64,000 nucleotides of DNA. It comes from DHVE2 group archaeon. Its GTDB lineage: Archaea; Thermoplasmatota; Thermoplasmata; Thermoplasmatales; Aciduliprofundaceae. The DNA is taken from positions 62,001 to 126,000 of the forward strand of contig JALWRZ010000010.1 in assembly GCA_026993785.1 (NCBI GenBank). Direction: 5' to 3'. A program made the position numbers and the translations under genes. The notes beneath the pieces were generated by a model that was not told the origin of the DNA, did not search any database, and was given only the letters and a program-made list of their open reading frames with translations. This document shows positions 16,444-48,114 of the stretch, piece by piece (positions within the stretch are counted from its first letter, which is position 1; each line of letters begins with the position of its first letter).

Positions 16444-16720
16444 TCTGGTAAGATTCTCCTTCCTGCTTTCCGGGGGAGAGCAAATAACCCGTGTTATGGA
16501 ATTTAAGGGTATAGATGAGGCCGATTTTCTGAATATTCGAAGATATGATGATAGATACGTGATAGAAATAGGCCCTCACACCATAGACCTCCCGGCAAAG
16601 CTAATGAAGGATCTCGTAGAGAATATTTTGCTCACTTATCCTGAGGATGAGGATCTCAAAGATATTATAGCCTCTCTTGCTCAAGATAAGCCATGGCTCT
16701 TTGAGAATTTGCCAGGGTAA
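16433..16720 (+). CDS. Small protein of unknown function
   Basis: 95 residues, mixed beta then helix: VRFSFLLSGGEQITRVMEF, YDDRYVIEIGPHTIDLP, then LMKDLVENILLTYPEDEDL. No family recognised. It overlaps the wHTH gene and so is coupled to it. Confidence 0.6.
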   Translation: MKDNLVRFSFLLSGGEQITRVMEFKGIDEADFLNIRRYDDRYVIEIGPHTIDLPAKLMKDLVENILLTYPEDEDLKDIIASLAQDKPWLFENLPG

Positions 16721-16765
16721 AGGTTAAATAACACTAAAAACATGCAAACCCTGGAGGATGTAAAA

Positions 16766-17419
16766 ATGGATAAACCAAAGTATTGTCCTTATTGCGGGCA
16801 TGAAATCCAGCCTGACTGGAAGATATGCCCTTATTGTGGACATCAACTGGAAGTTAAGAAAACCACTATTCAAAGCAAGATTATATATTACTACATCATA
16901 TCTTTGATATTAGGTGCTATATTTGTTATTCTGGCCATACTCCTGGCAATCTGGAGCTTTAAGGCTTCTTCCAACACAGTTATTCAATATTTCTCATCGC
17001 ATCCTGATATGGGAGAGAGAATGCTGTATAAGTATAGTAAAGTCGCATTGAACTTATGGAATCTTTCCGTTGTGGGGGGCTTGGTATTTGCTCTTATAGG
17101 ATTGATAACTGCTGTAGTGGCAGCATTCAAAAAGAAGCATATCCTAACAAGTGCAGGATTTTATATTACTGCCCTCGCATTATTCGGCATATCTCTAAGT
17201 TCTACCTTTTGGATGATGATGATGACCTATAACTCATTGTATAATGAATCCAAGAATATCACCTCTAACTATCAGACACTCACTAACACATTAATTGGCT
17301 ATCAAAACTTTCTCTGGATCCTCTTCATTGTGGGTGGTATTCTTATATTCGTAACCTTCTTAACCCACAGTAAAGAGACTGGACAAACCAGCGAGGAAAA
17401 AGCATCACAGGAGGGATGA
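16766..17419 (+). CDS. Double zinc-ribbon membrane protein
   Basis: About 217 residues from ATG 16766, which follows GGAGGATG. Two CxxC-based zinc ribbons open the protein (YCPYCGHEIQPDWKICPYCGHQLE), followed by four hydrophobic spans (for example IIYYYIISLILGAIFVILAI and LWILFIVGGILIFVTFLTH) and a polar tail. It is a membrane-anchored zinc-ribbon protein of unknown role. Two related-looking membrane or exported proteins follow in the same operon. Confidence 0.65.
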   Translation: MDKPKYCPYCGHEIQPDWKICPYCGHQLEVKKTTIQSKIIYYYIISLILGAIFVILAILLAIWSFKASSNTVIQYFSSHPDMGERMLYKYSKVALNLWNLSVVGGLVFALIGLITAVVAAFKKKHILTSAGFYITALALFGISLSSTFWMMMMTYNSLYNESKNITSNYQTLTNTLIGYQNFLWILFIVGGILIFVTFLTHSKETGQTSEEKASQEG

Positions 17420-17423
17420 TGCC

Positions 17424-18176
17424 GTGAAACATTTATGGTTATATGTAAGTGTCATAATAGTTGTTGCATTATTGATCTCAGTTTTTGTGTTTGTTAGTCT
17501 TCACAACAGTGAAAACAAGCAAAATATTAAGTTAATAGATTATAAGGTGGTAAATGATTATACTGCAGTTTATGGACATCATTGGAACACTACTACTTTA
17601 AGATTGAAATTCAACATGCCTCCCTCCGCCATAACAAATGAATATAATGTGTATGTTTATGATTCCCAAAAGAAAATGGTAGGAAAAGATATTGTCTATG
17701 GTGAGGGTGGAGGCTATCTGGATATCTATTTCCATGTGCCAATAAATTTTGTTGGAACTTATTATGTGGGCTTAGGTGGAGCATTCGATCCAAATCTTGG
17801 ATACTACCCTTTCTCGAAACTAGATACTGTTTTTAAAATAAATTTCACACAACCTTCTCTTGACATAACAGGTTGGTCGGTAAACTATAAAAAAGAGAGT
17901 AACAACGCAATGCTCGTTTCTATTAAGTTTTCTTTCAGAGTAAAGGGTGAGACCCCTTTCTATTATAGATATATTTTCTGGGAAATTGGTGACAAATCAA
18001 ATGGTGCTATAGTGGGAGAAAAACCCGTTAAGGAGGTAGATCCGAATAAATTGGTAACCACCATTATTTATATTTATCAACCTTTTGCTTATGGCTCATA
18101 TAAAGCAAAAATAACCCTAAGTGGATGCGATTTAGACCTTTCTGACACGATAAATATCAATCTGCAAAGGAGTTGA
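17424..18176 (+). CDS. Membrane-anchored extracellular protein
   Basis: 250 residues. It starts at GTG 17424 after GGAGGATGATG. An N-terminal signal anchor (LWLYVSVIIVVALLISVFVFV) is followed by about 220 residues of beta-rich, Tyr/Asn-rich sequence with no TM at the end. The segment likely folds as two beta-sandwich domains. No family is recognised. It lies four bases behind the zinc-ribbon membrane protein. Confidence 0.6.
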   Translation: MKHLWLYVSVIIVVALLISVFVFVSLHNSENKQNIKLIDYKVVNDYTAVYGHHWNTTTLRLKFNMPPSAITNEYNVYVYDSQKKMVGKDIVYGEGGGYLDIYFHVPINFVGTYYVGLGGAFDPNLGYYPFSKLDTVFKINFTQPSLDITGWSVNYKKESNNAMLVSIKFSFRVKGETPFYYRYIFWEIGDKSNGAIVGEKPVKEVDPNKLVTTIIYIYQPFAYGSYKAKITLSGCDLDLSDTININLQRS

Positions 18177-18180
18177 TGTT

Positions 18181-18738
18181 ATGGAAGAGGATGAGGATAT
18201 CGAGGTAATAGAACTAAAATCAAATAACAAGAGGGTGAAGAGAGAAAAAACAGAGATTGAAATCCTAGAGGTTTATCGCTGGGCAAGTGTGGTGTTAATG
18301 GTTTTCATCACCTTAATAGGATTTGCCCTCATATATCTGGGATATACACGTTTGTACTCTGTTTTAACATCAAGTATTGGAAGGTTTACTGCTTTAAAAG
18401 GCCTAGGTGCGGCGTATGGAATTATTTTATTCTTTGAGATTGTATTTATTCTTGTGGGAATAAGATTTGTTTGGAGGTTTTACAAAAGTGGAAATGGTGA
18501 AATGGGCGCTGCTATGGCATTCACTTCTCTTGCGCTTTTACATATCTTCAACTTATCTTATGGCCTGATAATCCTACTCTTCTATGAGTCGATGAATATC
18601 AAAACTCCCAAGAACTTTATTCACGATCTTACTTTTTGGAATGGGTTATCTATTGGTTTTATTATACTCATAGTACTTGCTATTGGAGTTTTAGGCGCTG
18701 GACATGCAAGAAGGCAGAGAATAAAATCATCACGCTGA
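18181..18738 (+). CDS. Four-span membrane protein
   Basis: 185 residues: a charged N-terminal tail (EEDEDIEVIELKSNNKRVKR), then hydrophobic spans VVLMVFITLIGFALIYLGY, AAYGIILFFEIVFILVGI, AMAFTSLALLHIFNLSYGLI and GLSIGFIILIVLAIGVLG, and a basic end. It is the last gene of the plus-strand block and is preceded by AAGGAG. Unknown family. Confidence 0.6.
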   Translation: MEEDEDIEVIELKSNNKRVKREKTEIEILEVYRWASVVLMVFITLIGFALIYLGYTRLYSVLTSSIGRFTALKGLGAAYGIILFFEIVFILVGIRFVWRFYKSGNGEMGAAMAFTSLALLHIFNLSYGLIILLFYESMNIKTPKNFIHDLTFWNGLSIGFIILIVLAIGVLGAGHARRQRIKSSR

Positions 18739-19008
18739 CCAGCACCTCCACCCCCTTTTATTTTTATTCGCCACACTTTTAAAATTCCTCTGAGCGATTT
18801 TTTCAAGCAGGGGTATAGAAAATATCCTCTTGGCCAAAATCGGCGGCGATAGGTATGCGTATGGAACATGTGCTGGGCTTGGTCTCCCATACTCTAATAC
18901 AGGAGTGAGATTCTATCTCGAACCTTAATTATTTTCAATTGTTTTTATTAAATTATTTAAATCCCGAGGAGGAAAATTATATATATCCGATCCCAACTAT
19001 CTCTTACT
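18739..19008 (+). other. Non-coding gap with promoter of the cargo pair
   Basis: 270 bases without a convincing gene. The right end has BRE/TATA-like sequence AAATTATATATATCC around 18975-18987, about 27 bases before the ATG of the AbrB-DUF488 gene, giving a leaderless start. Just before it is AT-rich sequence (about 18925-18960), marking a drop in GC that continues through the cargo. The left part holds a polypyrimidine tract at the operon end. Confidence 0.6.
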
Positions 19009-19581
19009 ATGAAAGAATACAAAAGAAGAATTGTGAATGGCAAAGGTGCAGCTTATATCAATATCCCCAAAAAATTGATGGAATCTATGGGGTGGGAGAT
19101 AGGAGATTCCGTGTATCTGTTTCCCAACTCTTCTGGAATATTTCTGTCTACTCCAAAGGTCTATACTCTAGGATATGAAGGGTTATCTCTGAAAAAATTT
19201 AAAGAGATACTCAAGAAGTATAGGATACAACAAGTTATTGATGTGCGAAATACTCCTTGGAGTGCAAATCCCGTGTTTAGAAGTGGGTACCTGGATAAAG
19301 TGCTAGAAGAAGCGGGTATTTTCTATTATAATATACCTAGGGTTGGTGCTCCCAAATCGTTGAGAAATATAATAACTAGTGATGGATATGAGGCCTTTTT
19401 TGAAAAATATAGAAGATATTTAAGAAATCAGAGAAAAGCTTTCAAATTATTAATGAAGCTGATAAACAATGGTAGAACTTTACTCTTATGTTATGAGAAA
19501 GATTGGAATATATGCCATAGAAAAATAATTGCTGAAGAATTGGAAAAACGAGGTTATGAGGTGGTACATATTGAGCACTGA
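19009..19581 (+). CDS. AbrB-like domain fused to DUF488
   Basis: 190 residues. Residues 1-45 (KRRIVNGKGAAYINIPKKLM then WEIGDSVYLFPNSSGIFLS) are a SpoVT/AbrB swapped-hairpin DNA-binding domain. Residues 50-190 are DUF488: VYTLGYEGLSLKKFKEIL, VIDVRNTPWSANP, and the hallmark LLLCYEKDWNICHRKIIAEEL with Cys, Glu and CHR. DUF488 proteins have no settled biochemistry; several sit in defence or DNA-modification neighbourhoods. The fusion to an AbrB domain is unusual. The DNA here is much more AT-rich than the rest of the element, suggesting later acquisition as cargo. It overlaps the next gene. Confidence 0.75.
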   Translation: MKEYKRRIVNGKGAAYINIPKKLMESMGWEIGDSVYLFPNSSGIFLSTPKVYTLGYEGLSLKKFKEILKKYRIQQVIDVRNTPWSANPVFRSGYLDKVLEEAGIFYYNIPRVGAPKSLRNIITSDGYEAFFEKYRRYLRNQRKAFKLLMKLINNGRTLLLCYEKDWNICHRKIIAEELEKRGYEVVHIEH

Positions 19582-20431
19582 TTGGATCTCTGCAGATGTT
19601 TATTTGTTTATAAAAACATATCCTGTGTTAAGTAGAACTTATAAGGTCCTTATATGTACAGCTGCAATATGGGAAAAAAATGATGGTAGCTATCAGCTTA
19701 TTAGAATGTATCCCGTACCTTTTGATTTTTATAAATCTCACTATGAGGGTCTTAAAAAATTTACTAAGATAAGAGTTGAAATTAAAAAATCAAATGAAAA
19801 ATTGAAAAGAAGTGATAGTTACAAGGTGAGATTTGAACGATTTAGAATATTGGATGATTCTCTTGCATACAAAGGGAGACAATTGACAGATGATATTTGG
19901 AGAGCTCGAAATTCCATTGTGAAAGAGGTTATGTATGATTCTGTGGAGCAATTAGAAGAGCTTAAAGAGAAAGAAAAAATTTCACTTGGTGTTATTAAGC
20001 CGAGAGAAATCTATGATTTCACAATGACTCCAAAAGAATTGGTTGGGAATAAATGGGAAAGAGAACTATTAAATGATACGCAGAAAACATTAGATTTCTT
20101 CAACACCGGGAAATCATATGGAGAAATTAGACCTATTGAACATATTCCATATAGGTTTGGATATCAGTTTAAATGTGATAATTATAGGTGCAAAGGACAT
20201 AATATGATGTGTGAGGATTGGGAATTGCTGCAATTATGGAGGGGAATTAGGGACTATTATCATAACAAAAAAGGTATAGATTTGACTCATGAGGAGATCT
20301 TTGAAAAAGTAAAGCAAAAATATCTTGATGAATTCACAAATAAGTATCACGCCTATTTTGTAATGGGTACGGAAAGCAGATGGAACAAATGGATAATTAT
20401 TGGCGTGTACTATACGCCAATTCCCATTTAA
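19556..20431 (+). CDS. Cargo partner protein with putative zinc site
   Basis: About 291 residues from ATG 19556, overlapping the DUF488 gene by 26 bases; TTG 19529 is in frame upstream. The C-terminal part contains IPYRFGYQFKC, then CDNYRCKGHNMMCEDWELL, where three Cys and a His could bind zinc, and the end WNKWIIIGVYYTP. The N-terminal part (RWYILSTDWISADVYLF, KVLICTAAIWEKNDGSYQLI) resembles a modified-nucleotide or nucleic-acid-binding fold only loosely. I cannot name a family. Overlap and shared AT-rich composition show that it works with the DUF488 protein. Confidence 0.6.
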   Translation: MRWYILSTDWISADVYLFIKTYPVLSRTYKVLICTAAIWEKNDGSYQLIRMYPVPFDFYKSHYEGLKKFTKIRVEIKKSNEKLKRSDSYKVRFERFRILDDSLAYKGRQLTDDIWRARNSIVKEVMYDSVEQLEELKEKEKISLGVIKPREIYDFTMTPKELVGNKWERELLNDTQKTLDFFNTGKSYGEIRPIEHIPYRFGYQFKCDNYRCKGHNMMCEDWELLQLWRGIRDYYHNKKGIDLTHEEIFEKVKQKYLDEFTNKYHAYFVMGTESRWNKWIIIGVYYTPIPI

Positions 20432-20619: not shown

Positions 20620-21231
20620 TCAGACACCGGCACGGTAACAGATTGTTTTTACTGTGCTATACTTGATTCCTGTCTTCTCTGAAATCTCTTTGAGGGTATA
20701 ACCCTTTTTCCTCAGGTTTAGAATCTGTTCTTTTAGTTGATCAGATATTTTAGGGGGTCTCCCTATGCGCTTCCCAGCTTTCCTGGCCTTTTCCATTCCT
20801 AACTTAGTGCGCTCTGAATTACTCTCTCGCTCATACTGTGCAAAGGAGACCAGTATATGAGCAAGAAGCCGACCTGATGGTGTACTCATGTCCAGTCCTT
20901 CAGTCACCGATGCAATTTTAGGCCCTATCTTCTCCACAATCTTAGTGAAATCATTAACGCTTCTTGTGATCCTGTCGAGCCTCCAGGTTATGAGCATGTC
21001 AGCTCCCCCCTCCTCAATTAAATTCAAAGCTTTATTAAGCTCTTTTCTCCTCTGTAAGCTCCCAGTTTTGGCGGTTTTTGGCTCTTTATACTCCAGAACC
21101 ACGTTCCATCCTTTGGCCTTTGCGTAGGCCCTGCATGCCTCAAGCTGAGCCTCTATGCTGTAGCCCTTTCGCTTCTGCTCTTCCGTCGAGACCCGGGCAT
21201 AGATTATTGCTCTCATATTACGGGAAGCCAT
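20620..21231 (-). CDS. Small serine recombinase (resolvase/invertase family)
   Basis: 203 residues. The catalytic domain has IIYARVSTEEQ with nucleophile Ser15, GYSIEAQLEACRAYAKAKGW, DMLITWRLDRITRS, SGRLLAHILVSFAQYERE and the long E-helix; the C-terminal 45 residues are a Hin-type helix-turn-helix (YTLKEISEKTGIKYSTVKTIC). It is the last gene of the minus-strand morphogenesis operon, with GGAG four bases before ATG 21231; ATG 21216 is also possible. It could resolve multimers of the circular form or invert a segment; no paired inverted site was found. Confidence 0.88.
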   Translation of the reverse strand: MASRNMRAIIYARVSTEEQKRKGYSIEAQLEACRAYAKAKGWNVVLEYKEPKTAKTGSLQRRKELNKALNLIEEGGADMLITWRLDRITRSVNDFTKIVEKIGPKIASVTEGLDMSTPSGRLLAHILVSFAQYERESNSERTKLGMEKARKAGKRIGRPPKISDQLKEQILNLRKKGYTLKEISEKTGIKYSTVKTICYRAGV

Positions 21232-39932: not shown

Positions 39933-40706
39933 ATGCCTCGTGTGGGAATAATAGGAGGTTCTGGGGTCTATGGTGTGTTTGAAGCAAGGAGAACGGTAAA
40001 GGTGCATACACCATACGGTCTACCATCTGGGAATGTGGAACTGGGAGAAATAAATGGTGTGGAGGTTGCATTCATTCCTCGCCATGGAAAGGGTCATTAC
40101 ATCCCGCCCCACAGAGTGAATTACCGCGCCAACATCTATGCACTACACTCTCTTGGTGTAGAGAGGGTAATTGGAATCGCCGCTGTTGGCTCTCTTCAGG
40201 AAGAATACAAACCAGGTGATATTGTCATCCCGGATCAGTACATAGATTTCACCAAGAGGAGGGATTACACCTTCTACGATGGGCCTAAGGTTGTGCATAT
40301 AAGCATGGCTGATCCATTCTGTCCCGAGTTAAGAAAGGTGTTCATCGATACTTCAAGATCACTTGGCTACAGAACTCACGATAAAGGAACATATGTATGC
40401 ATCGAAGGCCCGAGATTTTCAACACGTGCCGAGAGTCGCATGTTCAGACAGTTTGCAGATATCATAGGCATGACCCTTGTACCCGAGGTTCAATTGGCAC
40501 GGGAATTGGAGATGTGCTATGTGAACATAGCAACCATCACCGATTACGATGTATGGGCTGAGAAACCTGTGACCACCGAGCAAGTTATACGCGTTATGAA
40601 GGAAAACGAGGAGAAAGTTAGGAAAATCTTAGAAGAAGGGATCCCCAAAATACCCCAAGAGCGTAATTGCCCCTGCAAGGACGCTTTGAAGGGCGCGGAA
40701 ATATGA
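39933..40706 (+). CDS. mtnP: S-methyl-5'-thioadenosine phosphorylase
   Basis: 257 residues of the trimeric purine phosphorylase family: [12 protein letters not shown] (phosphate loop), [35 protein letters not shown] (GPRFSTRAE signature) and [11 protein letters not shown] (base-binding Asp). It phosphorolyses MTA, or related nucleosides, to methylthioribose 1-phosphate and adenine. A CPC end (RNCPCKDA) may form the disulfide known in hyperthermophilic homologues. ATGA overlap with the flippase gene. Confidence 0.9.
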
Positions 40707-42223
40707 ATCCCAAGAACCCAGGTATAGCCAGAAAATCGCTGTTTCTCCTTTCCTACAATATTTTTGGTGGTGTAACCGGCTACATCACCATGTTTTTCGC
40801 CATAAGATTCGTGGGCCAGGATGTGTGGGGTATCTATGGCTCGGCTCTTGGCATTGCAGGGCTTCTTGGAATCTTAGCTACTTTGGGTGTGGATTCTGCC
40901 CATGTTAAAAAGATAACACAAAAAGAGGAAAAGGAGGAATGCATGGGTGCATACCTTCTCATAAAAGGCTCGCTGGGGCTTATTTTTCTCCTCGTTTCCT
41001 TTGGTGGCTTTTTCCTTCTTGGCGATGTTTTTGGCTACAAATTTGAATCTCCCTATCTGGAGAAAGCGGTATATCTTGCTATTCTTAGCATGCTTCTTTC
41101 TTCTATAGCCAATATATTCAGAACCACATATCAGGCAAGACTGGATGCCCGTAAATCAGTAGCGCCTCTATTCGCCCAGGTAAGCGTTCAAAATCTTCTA
41201 ATTATAGCGTTTTCCTTATATTTTAGGCTGAACCCTTCAATGAATCGGGAATTCATAGGGGTTCTTTTTGCCTATTCTTTTCTCCTCGGTCAATTCTCCC
41301 GCCTTCTGATTTATATCCTTATAGGATTTAGGCGTCCTATTCCTGTCAAAAAACCATCCTCATCTCTACTGAGAGAGTATATAGGCTTTTCTATCCCCCT
41401 TGCTCTTATGGGTATCGTGGGTACCGTTCAGGCATACACGGATAGAACCATGCTCCAATTCTTCTGGAACTCTGCAGAAGTGGGTGGCTATTTCTCTGTG
41501 CAGAAGCTCGCGCTCTTTGTGACCTACATCGGGGCATCTGTGAGTTTTTTCCTATATCCTGCTCAATCCACATACTATGAAAATAAAGATAGAAGAAGAT
41601 TTTTCCAGATAACTACCAAATCTGAGAGATATCTATCTCTTGCTACTGCACCCTTTGTATTCTTCACTGTGGTAATGGCGCCGGAAATTCTCAATATTTT
41701 CAAGAAGACCTTGATACCATACTCCCTGCCCCTCATAATTCTTATGCTCTACGCCTACTTGAATGTTATAAACAAACCCTATGGCTCGCAGATTACTTCA
41801 GCAAACAAGCCCCATGAGGTGCTGAGGGTTGGTATTCTCCAGGCCTCTGTGAATGTAATTCTCAATGCCATATTCATACCCACATCCATCCTTGGCATAC
41901 CCCTTTTGGGATGGAAAAGCACAGGTGCTGCTCTGGCTACGCTTCTCTCTTTCCTCATAGGACTCATCTATTTCCGATATCGCCTTAGAAAAATTCTTGG
42001 AACAAAATACGAAAAAAGGATTTTCTATCATCTATGGGCGGGCACCGCATCTATGCTCGTTCTCTACTTCCTAAAACACTTCATAGGACCTCTCTATCCT
42101 TGGTATTTGGTAATCGGAGCTTTCCTCTTATTCATCGCAATCTATGCAAGTCTCCTCTATCTTGTGGGCGAGTTCGGACGCCCAGAGATTCTCCTCGCTC
42201 TGAATGTTTTGGGAAGGAGATAA
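40703..42223 (+). CDS. Polysaccharide flippase (Wzx/MATE-like)
   Basis: About 506 residues from ATG 40703, with 12-14 spans and the Wzx/MurJ pattern ([40 protein letters not shown]). It would move lipid-linked surface oligosaccharides or polymers outward. It begins the surface-polymer region and is convergent with the sulfatase-fold gene. Confidence 0.8.
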
Positions 42224-42243
42224 AAACTACCAAAAAAGTAAAT

Positions 42244-43596
42244 TTAAGTAATTCTCGTTCTAACTTTTGTTTTAGTAGCTGCATTTAAAAATTTGATTAC
42301 TTCCTTCTTCATTCCCTCTTCTATTTCTTTTGTAACTCTTATTTTGGGGTCATGGGATACAATACTCTCGAATTTCCAATCGGCAACATTAAAAATTCCC
42401 TTAAAGCTCTTATAATAAACTGCAATTCTGTATTTTTCTAGTTTAGCTATTACTTGTTGATATTCTTCTGTTTTTATGTGGTGTAGAACCTTATGTATGC
42501 CATAGGATTCCCCAAACACTGTCTCTGAGTATAACAGGGAATCATCACTTATGTTGTCCTCTACAAATCTTAGTATAAATGGATAGAGCTTCAATAAACT
42601 AATATACTTATCTTTCTTTTTTGTTGTTAATTTTAGATGAGATCCTTTAGGATATTTTATTAGAAGAGGCACCCTCAAAAGTTCGTCATATAGAAAAGTG
42701 CCGTGACTAATCCTTCCATGCTCTCCTAGTAATTGTCCATGATCACTGGTAATTATAATTAACGAATCCTCAAATTCATTTTTTTCTTTCAGGATTTGAA
42801 TTATCTTGGTAATTTGTCTAAATATATAATCGCATTCTTTTTCATATTTAGATTTCCACTTTTTTATAAATTCAATATCAATCTTATTTTTTATCCAATT
42901 TATCTCCACCTCACGCGCTGTGAATTCACCCAACAAATAAGGTTCATGTGTCTCCATAAAATTTATAAAAATGAATTTTTGATGAGGGTCTGTTCTCTTT
43001 AATTCCCTTATAATTTTTTTAGAGCCTTTTTCCAAGGGATAGTGTCTGAATAAATCAAGCAGTAAACTAATTTTGTACAAAATATAATCAAGAACTAGTT
43101 TGGATAACAATTTTATCTCTTTATTCTGAATCAAGAATTTTATATTTTTTATTTTAGAATAATTATTAGACGCTGAAATCTTCATATACCTCCTTCTCTC
43201 CTCCTCTGAGAGGATGGATTTATATGAAGTTGTAGATGCATCATAGAAATAATCAAAATCTTTGAAACCAAAAAAAGGGCTAACCAAGGTGTTTGCGCTT
43301 AATAAATACGTTTTATATCCTAATTCGGAAAGTCTTAAATGTAACAGATTATCACTTACAAGTTTTACCTCCAACATCTTTTTTTCCTTCGTTTCATGGG
43401 CACCATGAAATATAGGGTAGAGTCCTGTGAATATGGAGGCATGAGAGGGTAGAGTCCACGGAGCAGTAGAAATTACATTTTCGTACACGACAAAACCCTC
43501 TTTTTGAAGTCTCTCTTCTAAAGGTTTCGCATAATCCTTTCTTAGTGTATCAATCACAATCAAAATTATATTAGGGTAGTGGGCAGATGAAGGCAT
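42244..43596 (-). CDS. Sulfatase-fold phosphotransferase or hydrolase
   Basis: 450 residues of the alkaline phosphatase/sulfatase fold. IILIVIDTLRKDYA holds the first metal Asp pair, APWTLPSHASIFTGLYP the nucleophile region, and SDHGQLLGEHGRISHG the second metal Asp-His. The residue in the place of the sulfatase Cys/Ser is Thr, as in phosphoglycerol or phosphoethanolamine transferases. No signal peptide or span, so it is cytoplasmic or released. The DNA is clearly more AT-rich than its surroundings. Confidence 0.72.
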   Translation of the reverse strand: MPSSAHYPNIILIVIDTLRKDYAKPLEERLQKEGFVVYENVISTAPWTLPSHASIFTGLYPIFHGAHETKEKKMLEVKLVSDNLLHLRLSELGYKTYLLSANTLVSPFFGFKDFDYFYDASTTSYKSILSEEERRRYMKISASNNYSKIKNIKFLIQNKEIKLLSKLVLDYILYKISLLLDLFRHYPLEKGSKKIIRELKRTDPHQKFIFINFMETHEPYLLGEFTAREVEINWIKNKIDIEFIKKWKSKYEKECDYIFRQITKIIQILKEKNEFEDSLIIITSDHGQLLGEHGRISHGTFLYDELLRVPLLIKYPKGSHLKLTTKKKDKYISLLKLYPFILRFVEDNISDDSLLYSETVFGESYGIHKVLHHIKTEEYQQVIAKLEKYRIAVYYKSFKGIFNVADWKFESIVSHDPKIRVTKEIEEGMKKEVIKFLNAATKTKVRTRIT

Positions 43597-43695
43597 CGTG
43601 TGTGAGAATATCTAACGCACTATATGTAGTTTTCTTCATTTTTCCTCAAACCAATAAAACGCAAATATTTTAAATGATAATTCAAATTCTCTCTT

Positions 43696-44388
43696 ATGAA
43701 ATCTTTGGATTGCATATTCCTTGCAGCGGGAATTGGTAAAAGGATGAAAAAGAATGTGCCTAAACAACTAATAAGAATAGGTGGAAAGCCTATTCTTATT
43801 TATTCCCTTGAAACACTAGTAAAAAGTGGATATTTTAAAAATATAATAATAACCTATCCTGAAGGATATCGTCAAGAATATGAAAAGATACTTTCCAGTT
43901 ATTTTGTGAATGATGCACTAAAAAAATTTATCCTTGTGAAAGGCGGAGAGACAAGGCAAGAATCTGTGTTTAATGGATTGAAATATGTGGATACAAAGAG
44001 AGTACTAATTCATGAGGCGGCAAGGCCATTTTTATCCTTAGATCTTATTAAAAAAGTGTTATCATATAGTGATGCAGCGGTGGTTCCAGTAATAAGCATC
44101 CCCTTTACTGTGGCAGGGGGTGATGAATTTATGAAGAAAATCTTCAAAAGAGATGAACTTAAAAATATTCAGTTACCTCAGGTGTTTGATACTCCTATTT
44201 TATTAGAGTCCCACCAAAAAGCAAGAGAGGATAAGTTAATTTTTACAGATGATTCCACGTTGGTCTTTTACTATGGAAATAAAGTGAGGTTTGTACCGGG
44301 TGAAGAGACTAATATAAAAATTACTACTCCTACGGATTTATTACTTGCTGAGAGGATTCTTTTTGCTAAAGATCTTCCCTCAGAGTAG
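43696..44388 (+). CDS. IspD/TarI-like cytidylyltransferase
   Basis: 230 residues: the nucleotidyltransferase start FLAAGIGKRMKKNVPKQLI, VLIHEAARPFLSLDLI, LPQVFDTPILLE and EETNIKITTPTDLLLAE. This family includes IspD (MEP pathway) and TarI/Bcs1 (ribitol 5-phosphate cytidylyltransferase). Archaea make isoprenoids from mevalonate, so the TarI reading is preferred. The adjacent SDR and TagF-like genes support CDP-polyol synthesis. Confidence 0.78.
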   Translation: MKSLDCIFLAAGIGKRMKKNVPKQLIRIGGKPILIYSLETLVKSGYFKNIIITYPEGYRQEYEKILSSYFVNDALKKFILVKGGETRQESVFNGLKYVDTKRVLIHEAARPFLSLDLIKKVLSYSDAAVVPVISIPFTVAGGDEFMKKIFKRDELKNIQLPQVFDTPILLESHQKAREDKLIFTDDSTLVFYYGNKVRFVPGEETNIKITTPTDLLLAERILFAKDLPSE

Positions 44389-44397
44389 GTGATGGTA

Positions 44398-45105
44398 ATG
44401 AATCTTCAAGGTAAAGTTGCAATAGTGACGGGTGCCAGTCGAGGGATAGGAAAAGAAATAGCGAGAAGGTTGGCAAAAAATAGAGTTAGATTAGGTATAA
44501 TTTCTAGAAATGAAAAAGTGTTAAAGGAGACTGCTAAGGAATTGAAAAACCTTACAGAGGTCTATTATAAAGCATTGGATGTAAGGGATGAAAATGGAGT
44601 TAAGGAATTTGTAAAAGATATGATAAATCTGTATGGGAGAATAGATATATTAATAAACAATGCGGGCTATGTAAAGCCATTATCTCTCCTTGAAACAACA
44701 TTGGAAGATTGGAAGATGCAGCTGGATATAAATTTAACGGGCACATTTTTAATGACTAGAGAAGTAGTACGATATATGAAAAATTATGGAGGAAAAATAG
44801 TGAACATCGCATCTACTGCCGGGTTAACGCCGAGACCGGGATGGAGTGCATATGCTGCAAGTAAAGCGGGAGTGGTTAATTTTTCTCTTACAATGAGTGA
44901 GGAGCTAAAACAATATGGTATTAAAGTTTATTGTGTTGCACCAGGTAGAACTGCTACGGAGCTGAGAAGAATACTTGCCCCAGACGAGGATCAATCCAAA
45001 ATACTTCAACCTGAGAATGTTGCAGAATTGGTAGAAACCCTATTAACAGAGAAAGGTGACTATATAGATGGACAGGTAATAGTAATTAGAAAAAAGTTAT
45101 TTTAA
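44398..45105 (+). CDS. Short-chain dehydrogenase/reductase of the polymer locus
   Basis: About 235 residues: NAD(P) site VAIVTGASRGIGKEIA, NNAGYV, catalytic Ser in VNIASTAGLTPR and Tyr-Lys in YAASKAG. In bacteria a reductase beside TarI makes ribitol 5-phosphate from ribulose 5-phosphate (the Bcs1 fusion uses an SDR domain); the same role is inferred. The ATG at 44398 follows GGTGAT. Its end overlaps the convergent TagF-like gene by nine bases. Confidence 0.78.
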   Translation: MNLQGKVAIVTGASRGIGKEIARRLAKNRVRLGIISRNEKVLKETAKELKNLTEVYYKALDVRDENGVKEFVKDMINLYGRIDILINNAGYVKPLSLLETTLEDWKMQLDINLTGTFLMTREVVRYMKNYGGKIVNIASTAGLTPRPGWSAYAASKAGVVNFSLTMSEELKQYGIKVYCVAPGRTATELRRILAPDEDQSKILQPENVAELVETLLTEKGDYIDGQVIVIRKKLF

Positions 45106-46311
45106 TATATTTTCTATGAGATCTATTACATTATCTGAATATTTTCCGCTCACAGCACCATGAATTAAGTGTAAGCATTTTTCATAAAATTCAAGATTAA
45201 AAGCCTTCTTTTCTTGTATAACTTGTGCCAACACTTCATAGAAATCCGCGCTATTTGTTGTCATATATCCTGGCCTGTACTCAGGAGGGACTTCAGAAAG
45301 CCCTCTCTGAAATGTAAAATATTTTTTATTAACCTCTATAAATATTATTGGTCTTCGTGTAACTAAGTAATCTGTATATATGGAAGACCAGTCAGTAATA
45401 AGAAGATCAGATACAGCTAATAATAACATGGTGTCAGGATACTTATTCATTGGAACAAATTTGATATTATCATAGCTCTTTAAATACTTTTTTAGCTTTT
45501 TTCTATTGTATTTAGCATAGGGATGTGTACGTAACAAAAGATATGATCTATATTTTTTTAAAAATTTTGCTAGCTGGGCAATACCCTTGTATGGATCACC
45601 CCAAGGCCATAAACCTATATCAAAGGTTGGAGCATACAAAATTATTTTTTTAAACTCTTTGGGGATATTTAACATATCCCTTAATTTATCAGGTGGTGTT
45701 TGGAGATATTTTAAAAGCCGATCCAGTCTTGCAAATCCGGTTACATATAGTTTGTGAGGTGGTGCGCTCCATAATTCAATGTGTTTTTTCTTAATAAATT
45801 CTGAAGACATACACCAACCATCAAATTCATCATACGCGCCAGTAAAATCTGTACCCTTGGGTCCCACACCATGCCACAACTGAAGCTTCTTTAAGGATCT
45901 ATACTGAGATTGAAGAATCGTTGGAAAATTAATAGCACCCCTATGCGCAAGCACCCAGAGATCTGCGGCGAGGTAGGTTCTTATGCTGAGTAAACCATGC
46001 TTATAAAGTACCGGTTTTCCCTCCCTTCGCAGTTTGAGAAACTCATTTAGATTGCTCGTCATCCAGTAGACCTCATATTTTTTTCGCACATCCTCTCTTT
46101 CCAGCATTCTCTCATACACAGCTCTGGGATTACCTGTATAGTAAAGATTGGTGAAAATTATGATTTTTTTAGTCTTTTTAATAGGTTTAGGATGGAATAA
46201 TTTATATGCAGTAACGTGTAAGGAAATAAAAATAAGTTTGAATAGGTTTTCAATATTCGAACCCTGTCTCATCAACGACCTGAGGTAAATAATCTTAGAA
46301 GCTTGACTCAT
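45097..46311 (-). CDS. CDP-glycerol/CDP-ribitol glycerophosphotransferase-like (TagF/TarL family)
   Basis: About 404 residues with the PF04464 signatures: IIIFTNLYYTGNPRAVYERM, KLQLWHGVGPKG, IILYAPTFD, LLLRTHPYA and SDLLITDWSSIYTDYLVTRR, where the His residues and DWSS loop bind the CDP-polyol. The enzyme would build a poly(polyol phosphate). It starts at 46311 (MSQASKII); the longer frame overlaps the glycosyltransferase. It is five bases behind that gene and convergent with the SDR. Confidence 0.82.
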   Translation of the reverse strand: MSQASKIIYLRSLMRQGSNIENLFKLIFISLHVTAYKLFHPKPIKKTKKIIIFTNLYYTGNPRAVYERMLEREDVRKKYEVYWMTSNLNEFLKLRREGKPVLYKHGLLSIRTYLAADLWVLAHRGAINFPTILQSQYRSLKKLQLWHGVGPKGTDFTGAYDEFDGWCMSSEFIKKKHIELWSAPPHKLYVTGFARLDRLLKYLQTPPDKLRDMLNIPKEFKKIILYAPTFDIGLWPWGDPYKGIAQLAKFLKKYRSYLLLRTHPYAKYNRKKLKKYLKSYDNIKFVPMNKYPDTMLLLAVSDLLITDWSSIYTDYLVTRRPIIFIEVNKKYFTFQRGLSEVPPEYRPGYMTTNSADFYEVLAQVIQEKKAFNLEFYEKCLHLIHGAVSGKYSDNVIDLIENILK

Positions 46312-46316
46312 AGGGT

Positions 46317-47297
46317 TTACACTCCCCTTAATATCTTTACCAGCTTCTCTTCTCTTTTTCTCAAAGAAAAATCCCAAGAACGATCTTTTACTTTTTTGAT
46401 GAAATCTGGATTCTTTGAATACTCAAAGGCCCTTTGGAGACCCTTCGCTATATTTTCTATATCCCCGTATTCCACAACAATACCAGCATCTCCAACAACT
46501 TCTGGCAAAGCACCGCGATTGGTAACAACGGGAATGCAGCCGCATCGCATCGCTTCTACAACAGCGATACCAAATGATTCATAAGCGGATAATTGCATGT
46601 AGACGCTACATTTCTTAAGGGTGTCCACAAGTTCTTCGTGTGGTAAGAAACCTAATATCTTCACATTTGCTGGAGCATGTTGTTTTAAAATATCTGGAGT
46701 TTCATCCATAGGTTTACCTACTATGATGAATTCATAGTCTGGAAAATGTTCTGCTACCCTGAGATAGGTAAGCAATCCCTTTCTCATAATATTCTCTTTT
46801 TTTAGTATGCTTATAGTAGCTATTTTTCTCTCTTTTCTTCCAATTTCCCCTCGGCAAAAATTGTCAGGAACACCGTTGTACACAATCTCATGTTTCCTTG
46901 GGGTGGCTATTTTAAGCATCTCCTTTTCATGGAATTTAGATACTGGAAGTGCAAAATCGGCGTGGGAAATTGAATATTTACACAGAAATTTTTCCAGCAT
47001 GGTTCCCTGAACCCACAGTCCATACCCTATCTCCGGCACGTTTGCAGCATCATATCCACCAACGACCACGAGGCTTTTCTTTCCAAGCAATCTTGCAAGG
47101 AAAACAGAAATGCCAGCATGCTTCCCTGCAAACCAGATGAAAACGACATCAGCCTCCTTTATCTTCTTTGCCAGTTTTATTATATCGCTTCTTTTTCTCA
47201 CGGCAATCTCATCCACTTCGAAATGCTTTGAAAGGATATCTATATCTCTCTGTATAAACGTTGTTTTGTTGCGATAGTATGCCACGAGCACTCTCAT
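46317..47297 (-). CDS. GT4 family glycosyltransferase
   Basis: About 326 residues of GT-B fold: N-terminal MRVLVAYYRNKT, C-terminal ISILKKENIMRKGL, FIIVGKPMDE and YESFGIAVVEAMRCGCIPVV with the E-x7-E motif typical of GT4. It transfers a sugar from a nucleotide donor to a surface lipid or polymer. The start at 47297 begins at the first Rossmann strand; upstream frame overlaps transaldolase. It forms an operon with the TagF-like gene. Confidence 0.82.
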   Translation of the reverse strand: MRVLVAYYRNKTTFIQRDIDILSKHFEVDEIAVRKRSDIIKLAKKIKEADVVFIWFAGKHAGISVFLARLLGKKSLVVVGGYDAANVPEIGYGLWVQGTMLEKFLCKYSISHADFALPVSKFHEKEMLKIATPRKHEIVYNGVPDNFCRGEIGRKERKIATISILKKENIMRKGLLTYLRVAEHFPDYEFIIVGKPMDETPDILKQHAPANVKILGFLPHEELVDTLKKCSVYMQLSAYESFGIAVVEAMRCGCIPVVTNRGALPEVVGDAGIVVEYGDIENIAKGLQRAFEYSKNPDFIKKVKDRSWDFSLRKREEKLVKILRGV

Positions 47298-47310
47298 CTT
47301 CACACCAAAT

Positions 47311-48114
47311 TCAGGAGAAAATCTCCCTGTATCCGGCCTTCTCCGCATCTTCGCTGAATTTTTTAACCCCTTCCTCGGTTTTGGGATGCAGCAGCATGGA
47401 TTGAAGCACATGGAATGGAATCGTTGCTATATGCACTCCAATCATGGCCACCTCGCGCACCTGTCTCGCGTTGCGTATGCTTGAAGCGATGACTTCTGTC
47501 TCATAATCGTAGTTTTCAAGAATCATCACTGTCTTTTCCACAAGATCCGCGCCACTGCGTATGCCGTTATCATCCACTCCCTTTCCGTCCCATGGGTAAT
47601 AATCGCCCTTCTGGAAATCCTGCCCCCTTTTCAATCCCAGTTTCGTCTCGCGAAGATAATCATCTATCCGTCCAGCAAAGGGACTCACATAGCGAGCTCC
47701 TGCTTTCGCGGCTAGCAACGCCTGCTCAGGGGTCATTATGAGTGTGCAGTTCACGGGTATGCCTTCCTCGCTCAATCGTTTGATGGTTTTGAGACCCTCA
47801 TAGTGACCCGCATAGGTATTTATGGGTATCTTTATCACCACATTCCCCGCGATTCCATTGAACTTGTCATAGAGTATCTCAGCTTCCCGAATCATGTCCT
47901 CAGATTTGAGCCCCATGACCTCCAGGCTCACAGGTCTATCGGGACCGGCAACCTTGAGGAGCTCAGCGATGTAATCTTCTAAGCTCATATCTTTTTTCTC
48001 CTCTTCCACAGCCTTGCGAATAAGAGAGGGGTTAGTGGTTACACCATCCACTATGCCCCAGGAGATTGCCTCACGGATCTCGCTAATTTTTGCCGTATCA
48101 ATAAATATCTTCAT
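47311..48114 (-). CDS. tal: Transaldolase
   Basis: 267 residues of the small transaldolase/FSA family: MKIFIDTAKISEIREAISWG, GVTTNPSL, the Schiff-base lysine in NVVIKIPIN, and NCTLIMTPEQALLAAKAGAR. A C-terminal extension YREIFS is present. It links sedoheptulose and fructose phosphates; with the split transketolase just upstream it gives a non-oxidative pentose pathway. It overlaps the transketolase gene by four bases. Confidence 0.88.
   Translation of the reverse strand: MKIFIDTAKISEIREAISWGIVDGVTTNPSLIRKAVEEEKKDMSLEDYIAELLKVAGPDRPVSLEVMGLKSEDMIREAEILYDKFNGIAGNVVIKIPINTYAGHYEGLKTIKRLSEEGIPVNCTLIMTPEQALLAAKAGARYVSPFAGRIDDYLRETKLGLKRGQDFQKGDYYPWDGKGVDDNGIRSGADLVEKTVMILENYDYETEVIASSIRNARQVREVAMIGVHIATIPFHVLQSMLLHPKTEEGVKKFSEDAEKAGYREIFS

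Follow-up and report, generated by a model that had tools for sequence, protein, structure and literature searches.

Three adjacent genes occupy positions 43696–46311 of the window, the 64,000-nucleotide stretch analysed here, which comes from an archaeon of the Aciduliprofundum family with a genome of 1.66 Mb that is 99.84% complete. The open reading frames and their Pfam families confirmed the arrangement given in a preliminary description of this DNA, including a flippase and a GT4 enzyme as neighbours. The first gene (43696–44388, + strand) encodes a 230-residue cytidylyltransferase of the IspD/TarI family (hereafter IspD protein) with intact CTP-site motifs, predicted to turn CTP and a polyol phosphate into a CDP-polyol. 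Its stop codon (44386–44388) lies 9 bp before the likely ATG start, at 44398 and preceded by GGTGAT, of a 235-residue SDR of the Bcs1 reductase type (44398–45105, + strand, within an open frame at 44389–45105), a predicted keto-pentose-phosphate reductase, and this short gap suggests translational coupling. The third gene (45097–46311, − strand) encodes a predicted CDP-polyol phosphotransferase of the TagF/TarL/TarF family with 404 residues (hereafter TagF), and its 3′ end overlaps that of the SDR gene on the opposite strand by 9 bp. A GT4 glycosyltransferase gene (46317–47297, − strand) lies 5 bp upstream of TagF, and the two stand 13 bp downstream of tkt-tal and are transcribed in the tkt-tal direction. 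On the other side, a gene for a sulfatase/alkaline-phosphatase-superfamily protein (42244–43596, − strand) diverges from that of the IspD protein; its product, a putative phosphoesterase or phosphotransferase, has a threonine where the nucleophile would be expected (PWTLPSH) and lacks an evident membrane helix.

Together these genes form a 5.09 kb cassette (42224–47310) that extends from the stop of a Wzx-like flippase (Polysacc_synt; 40703–42223, + strand) to the stop of a transaldolase (47311–48114, − strand), both of which are conserved flanks. GC content is 0.315–0.364 in the four cassette genes at 42244–46311, 0.408 in the GT4 gene and 0.43–0.49 in the flanks. A search for repeats marking the cassette ends found a 9-base direct repeat and nothing longer. 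Elsewhere in the window, a second low-GC island (0.32–0.37; 16500–20400) adjoins a serine-recombinase-like open frame (20623–21231). The same site is empty in a closed related genome (G009; G numbers denote individual genomes), where about ten bases separate the stop codons of the flippase and transaldolase genes; in A. boonei T469 it holds a different cassette of ~5 kb, with a fused Bcs1, a TagF, a nucleotidyltransferase and one further gene, and in G012 a longer cassette with rml-like genes. The G012 cassette also encodes a nucleotidyltransferase whose nearest matches are inositol-1-phosphate cytidylyltransferases, together with a myo-inositol-1-phosphate synthase (L125:5715-7765), with a TagF of the window type nearby. 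Low GC, an empty site and alternative cassettes form the pattern expected of an exchangeable, capsule-like surface-glycan site. As in bacterial capsule and O-antigen loci, a swappable low-GC cassette sits between conserved flanks and related strains carry differing alleles, but the present locus is archaeal and its cassette is small, with a flippase on one side and a transaldolase on the other.

The preliminary description had read the genes and their neighbours as a nearly complete route to a surface poly(ribitol or glycerol phosphate), a reading of which CDP-polyol formation and transfer are well supported, whereas a polymeric product and a place for the flippase in the pathway are not. The flippase is kept in 13 of 18 family genomes, also beside the empty site, and is thus not specific to the cassette; as a conserved flank, it may transport any glycan of these cells.

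The transferase assignment rests on a match to Glyphos_transf (PF04464; 111.5 bits, cut-off 22.1) and on the WHG, THP and DWSS motifs noted earlier, which occur as LQLWHGVGPK, LLRTHPYAK and ITDWSSIYTD. Across an alignment of ten sequences that includes TarL and further TagF-like enzymes, the key residues H147, H263, D307, S309 and S310 are invariant. The protein scores far below the TarL, TarF and TarB equivalog cut-offs, and it could transfer single units rather than build a polymer. Two TagF subtypes, about 20–26% identical, occur in the family, and that of A. boonei accompanies Bcs1. TagFs of the window subtype are 51–55% identical in G009, G012 and G015, and 41–42% identical in G149, G158 and G238; a related GT4 accompanies those of G009 and G158. 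No IspD-family partner for these six TagFs (41–55% identity) was found in the stretches and genomes searched. In G009, the convergent position beside TagF, held in the window by the SDR/IspD pair, is occupied by a LicC-like cytidylyltransferase.

The cytidylyltransferase matches the IspD family (PF01128) with 175 bits and exceeds the TIGR00453 ispD cut-off (197 versus 181 bits), while its score against the NCBIfam model for ribitol-5-phosphate cytidylyltransferase (TarI), 133.7 bits, does not reach the 166-bit cut-off; among PDB entries, MEP IspDs rank best and TarI second. The ispD score and the PDB ranking would suit an enzyme of the MEP pathway or a relic of one, but the ispD cut-off is also passed by Bcs1 fusions, and the gene content of the host contradicts such a role. 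Further MEP genes in the genome had been named in advance as evidence that would count against another purpose for this enzyme in a mevalonate-using archaeon; a search of the host genome found neither IspF nor DXR, and HMG-CoA reductase is present, so that the IspD protein does not appear to serve the MEP pathway, and we regard that explanation as very improbable. The same genome has no other IspD, and matches to TagD-type CDP-glycerol synthase stay below the cut-off there (46 versus 165 bits). Its sole match to the oligosaccharyltransferase STT3 (L206, G000:C14:43006-44274) lies in an unusually long open frame of 2084 residues.

The SDR (adh_short, 201 bits) carries the TGxxxGIG Rossmann motif, the catalytic S/Y/K residues and an RTxTxxR motif that, among 30 SDR open frames, is confined to Bcs1 halves and the window protein; a GxVIxIRK-like C-terminus is likewise common to both. 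A tree built from 10 Bcs1 halves and a further 19 SDRs puts it in a basal position on the Bcs1 side of a branch with support 98/87, and a second tree with 14 other SDRs recovers the same Bcs1-side branch (100/99), bearing out its proposed kinship to the reductase half of Bcs1, although few members of a very large superfamily were sampled, so that an unsampled subfamily could sit between the window SDR and Bcs1. Overall similarity, with its PDB and NCBIfam rankings, had pointed to a generic FabG-type SDR, an assignment overturned by the tree and the RTxTxxR motif. Bcs1 and Acs1, which make CDP-ribitol, contain the same two domain families in the same order, but in the window these are two proteins with a stop codon between them, and the window SDR retains a segment of its Rossmann half absent from the Bcs1 halves. 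With this longer N-terminal half and a start of its own in the SDR, and an IspD protein far from Bcs1, a recently split or frameshifted Bcs1 is ruled out.

The IspD protein is 25–36% identical to Bcs1 IspD domains and is not placed within the Bcs1 clade, forming a lone long branch (end branch 1.57). The best tree places it weakly with MEP-type IspD (67/80), and the tree tests allow Bcs1 (AU p 0.164), TarI (0.43) and MEP-type placements alike. Two near-invariant positions have changed: position 107 is D in 99 of 100 relatives and E here (D107E in 0 of 100), and position 160 is T in 98 of 100 and L here (T160L in 0 of 100). Additionally, the residue preceding T138 is F, where most relatives have D or E. 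Position 107 corresponds to D106 of E. coli IspD, which lies at the substrate, and the polyol used may therefore be an altered one.

These substitutions suit a route of the same logic with another polyol, most likely glycerol, in which the SDR and IspD protein would furnish CDP-glycerol, or yet another polyol, for a TagF whose donor specificity is shared throughout its subtype. A gene row in G238, from another class of the phylum (L215:5103-8142), is also consistent with this: a TagF 42% identical to that of the window precedes genes for a LicC-like cytidylyltransferase and a GpsA-type glycerol-3-phosphate dehydrogenase, the GpsA being of bacterial type. The row appears to be a CDP-glycerol counterpart of the module, and its same logic but different ancestry supports the idea of a module. 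The SDR, however, has the motif of Bcs1, whose product is CDP-ribitol, and donor specificity changes within the transferase family, as between TagF and TarL; we consider a polyol other than ribitol unlikely, though still a serious candidate.

The survey of the genes in other Thermoplasmatota that the preliminary description had proposed was carried out on 389 genomes of the phylum. Six proteins exceed the ispD cut-off, five of them as open frames of 446–481 residues, that of the window measuring 235. In the long frames IspD is followed by SDR, the architecture of Bcs1, as indicated by family scans of one and tblastn of the rest; such fusions occur in A. boonei, G008, G210, G218 and G231. A Bcs1-type gene with an adjacent TagF was found in A. 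boonei, G008, G218 and G016, the G016 gene being cut by the contig end. PF04464 is present in 4 of the 6 genomes with a protein above the ispD cut-off versus 33 of 378 overall, a hypergeometric probability of 6e-4 that ignores phylogeny. Seven other survey genomes carry unfused IspD homologues, which group with TarI and TarI-like genes. In the neighbourhoods fetched, TagF or LicD lies near all 13 IspD-family loci, three of which also have an oxidoreductase resembling the neighbour of an L. plantarum TarI-like gene. Two of the archaeal loci (L127:8446-10822 and L128:8976-18388) combine Bcs1 fusions and LicD-family genes in one cluster.

These neighbourhoods bear on whether the IspD/SDR pair and TagF work together at all. 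The two lie on opposite strands, and the six related TagFs have no IspD-family partner, as might be expected if TagF were fed from elsewhere and the pair served another phosphopolyol transfer. Against such a separation stand their common low-GC cassette, the Bcs1-TagF neighbourhood repeated in four other genomes, and a host genome with neither a TagD equivalog nor another IspD, and functional independence of the two seems to us improbable.

Taken together, CDP-polyol synthesis with phosphopolyol transfer is well supported as the predicted function, on the grounds that MEP enzymes are absent, no TagD scores above cut-off, the SDR is of Bcs1 type, Bcs1-TagF neighbourhoods recur and the cassette is polymorphic. 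We infer, with a probability of roughly 60%, that the cassette makes a CDP-activated polyol, most likely ribitol, and moves the polyol phosphate onto a lipid-linked or surface glycan, the reactions, polyol, acceptor and surface location all being predicted from gene content and sequence comparison. The SDR would form ribitol 5-phosphate by reducing a keto-sugar phosphate, most likely ribulose 5-phosphate; coupling of this product to CTP by the IspD-family enzyme would yield CDP-ribitol; and TagF would transfer ribitol phosphate, once or repeatedly, to an acceptor that the GT4 has made ready. On this view, the SDR and the IspD protein would correspond to the fused Bcs1/Acs1 of bacteria, as a pair that branched early and is not fused. 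Ribitol is a first guess, and the placement of the IspD protein, D107E and T160L, the window-type TagFs without an IspD partner, and the position of TagF outside the IspD/SDR operon all weigh against this explanation. More speculatively, and with rather low confidence, we suggest that the family may vary its surface by swapping non-homologous reductase-cytidylyltransferase-transferase modules at one locus, with the window pair an unfused intermediate between ordinary SDR/IspD proteins and Bcs1 that makes a CDP-polyol not yet known.

The proposed pathway resembles TarI/TarJ/TarL of Gram-positive ribitol teichoic acid synthesis in its adjacent cytidylyltransferase, reductase and PF04464 transferase, but the reductase here is an SDR, whereas TarJ belongs to the MDR family, and the 404-residue TagF scores far below the TarL, TarF and TarB cut-offs. 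Similarly, mammalian ISPD with fukutin/FKRP, acting on dystroglycan, uses IspD-family CDP-ribitol synthesis for phosphoribitol transfer. Fukutin resembles the LicD family, which is combined with Bcs1 in two Thermoplasmatota loci, while the window has TagF in place of LicD. Among archaea, phosphopolyol glycans are hardly known, in line with the preliminary description, which had called archaeal teichoic-like polymers hardly characterised; excerpts on Methanobrevibacter ruminantium M1, however, already note genes of teichoic type and a wall rich in phosphate (PMC2812497), and excerpts of a further source name a PF04464-type gene (PMC5816558). That organism is a pseudomurein-walled methanogen, and these excerpts do not mention CDP-ribitol genes. 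Among the titles and abstracts listed for open-licence papers, nothing relevant joined CDP-ribitol or teichoic acid with Thermoplasmata or Aciduliprofundum, and the collection of open-licence papers searched gave no earlier mention of a Bcs1-type CDP-ribitol route in archaea.

With a fused Bcs1 and a TagF at the same site, A. boonei T469 offers a cultured organism in which to test the prediction. The window pair may represent an unfused relative of Bcs1, and the proposed pathway would give a role to IspD-family genes of mevalonate-using archaea, cautioning against their annotation as isoprenoid genes.
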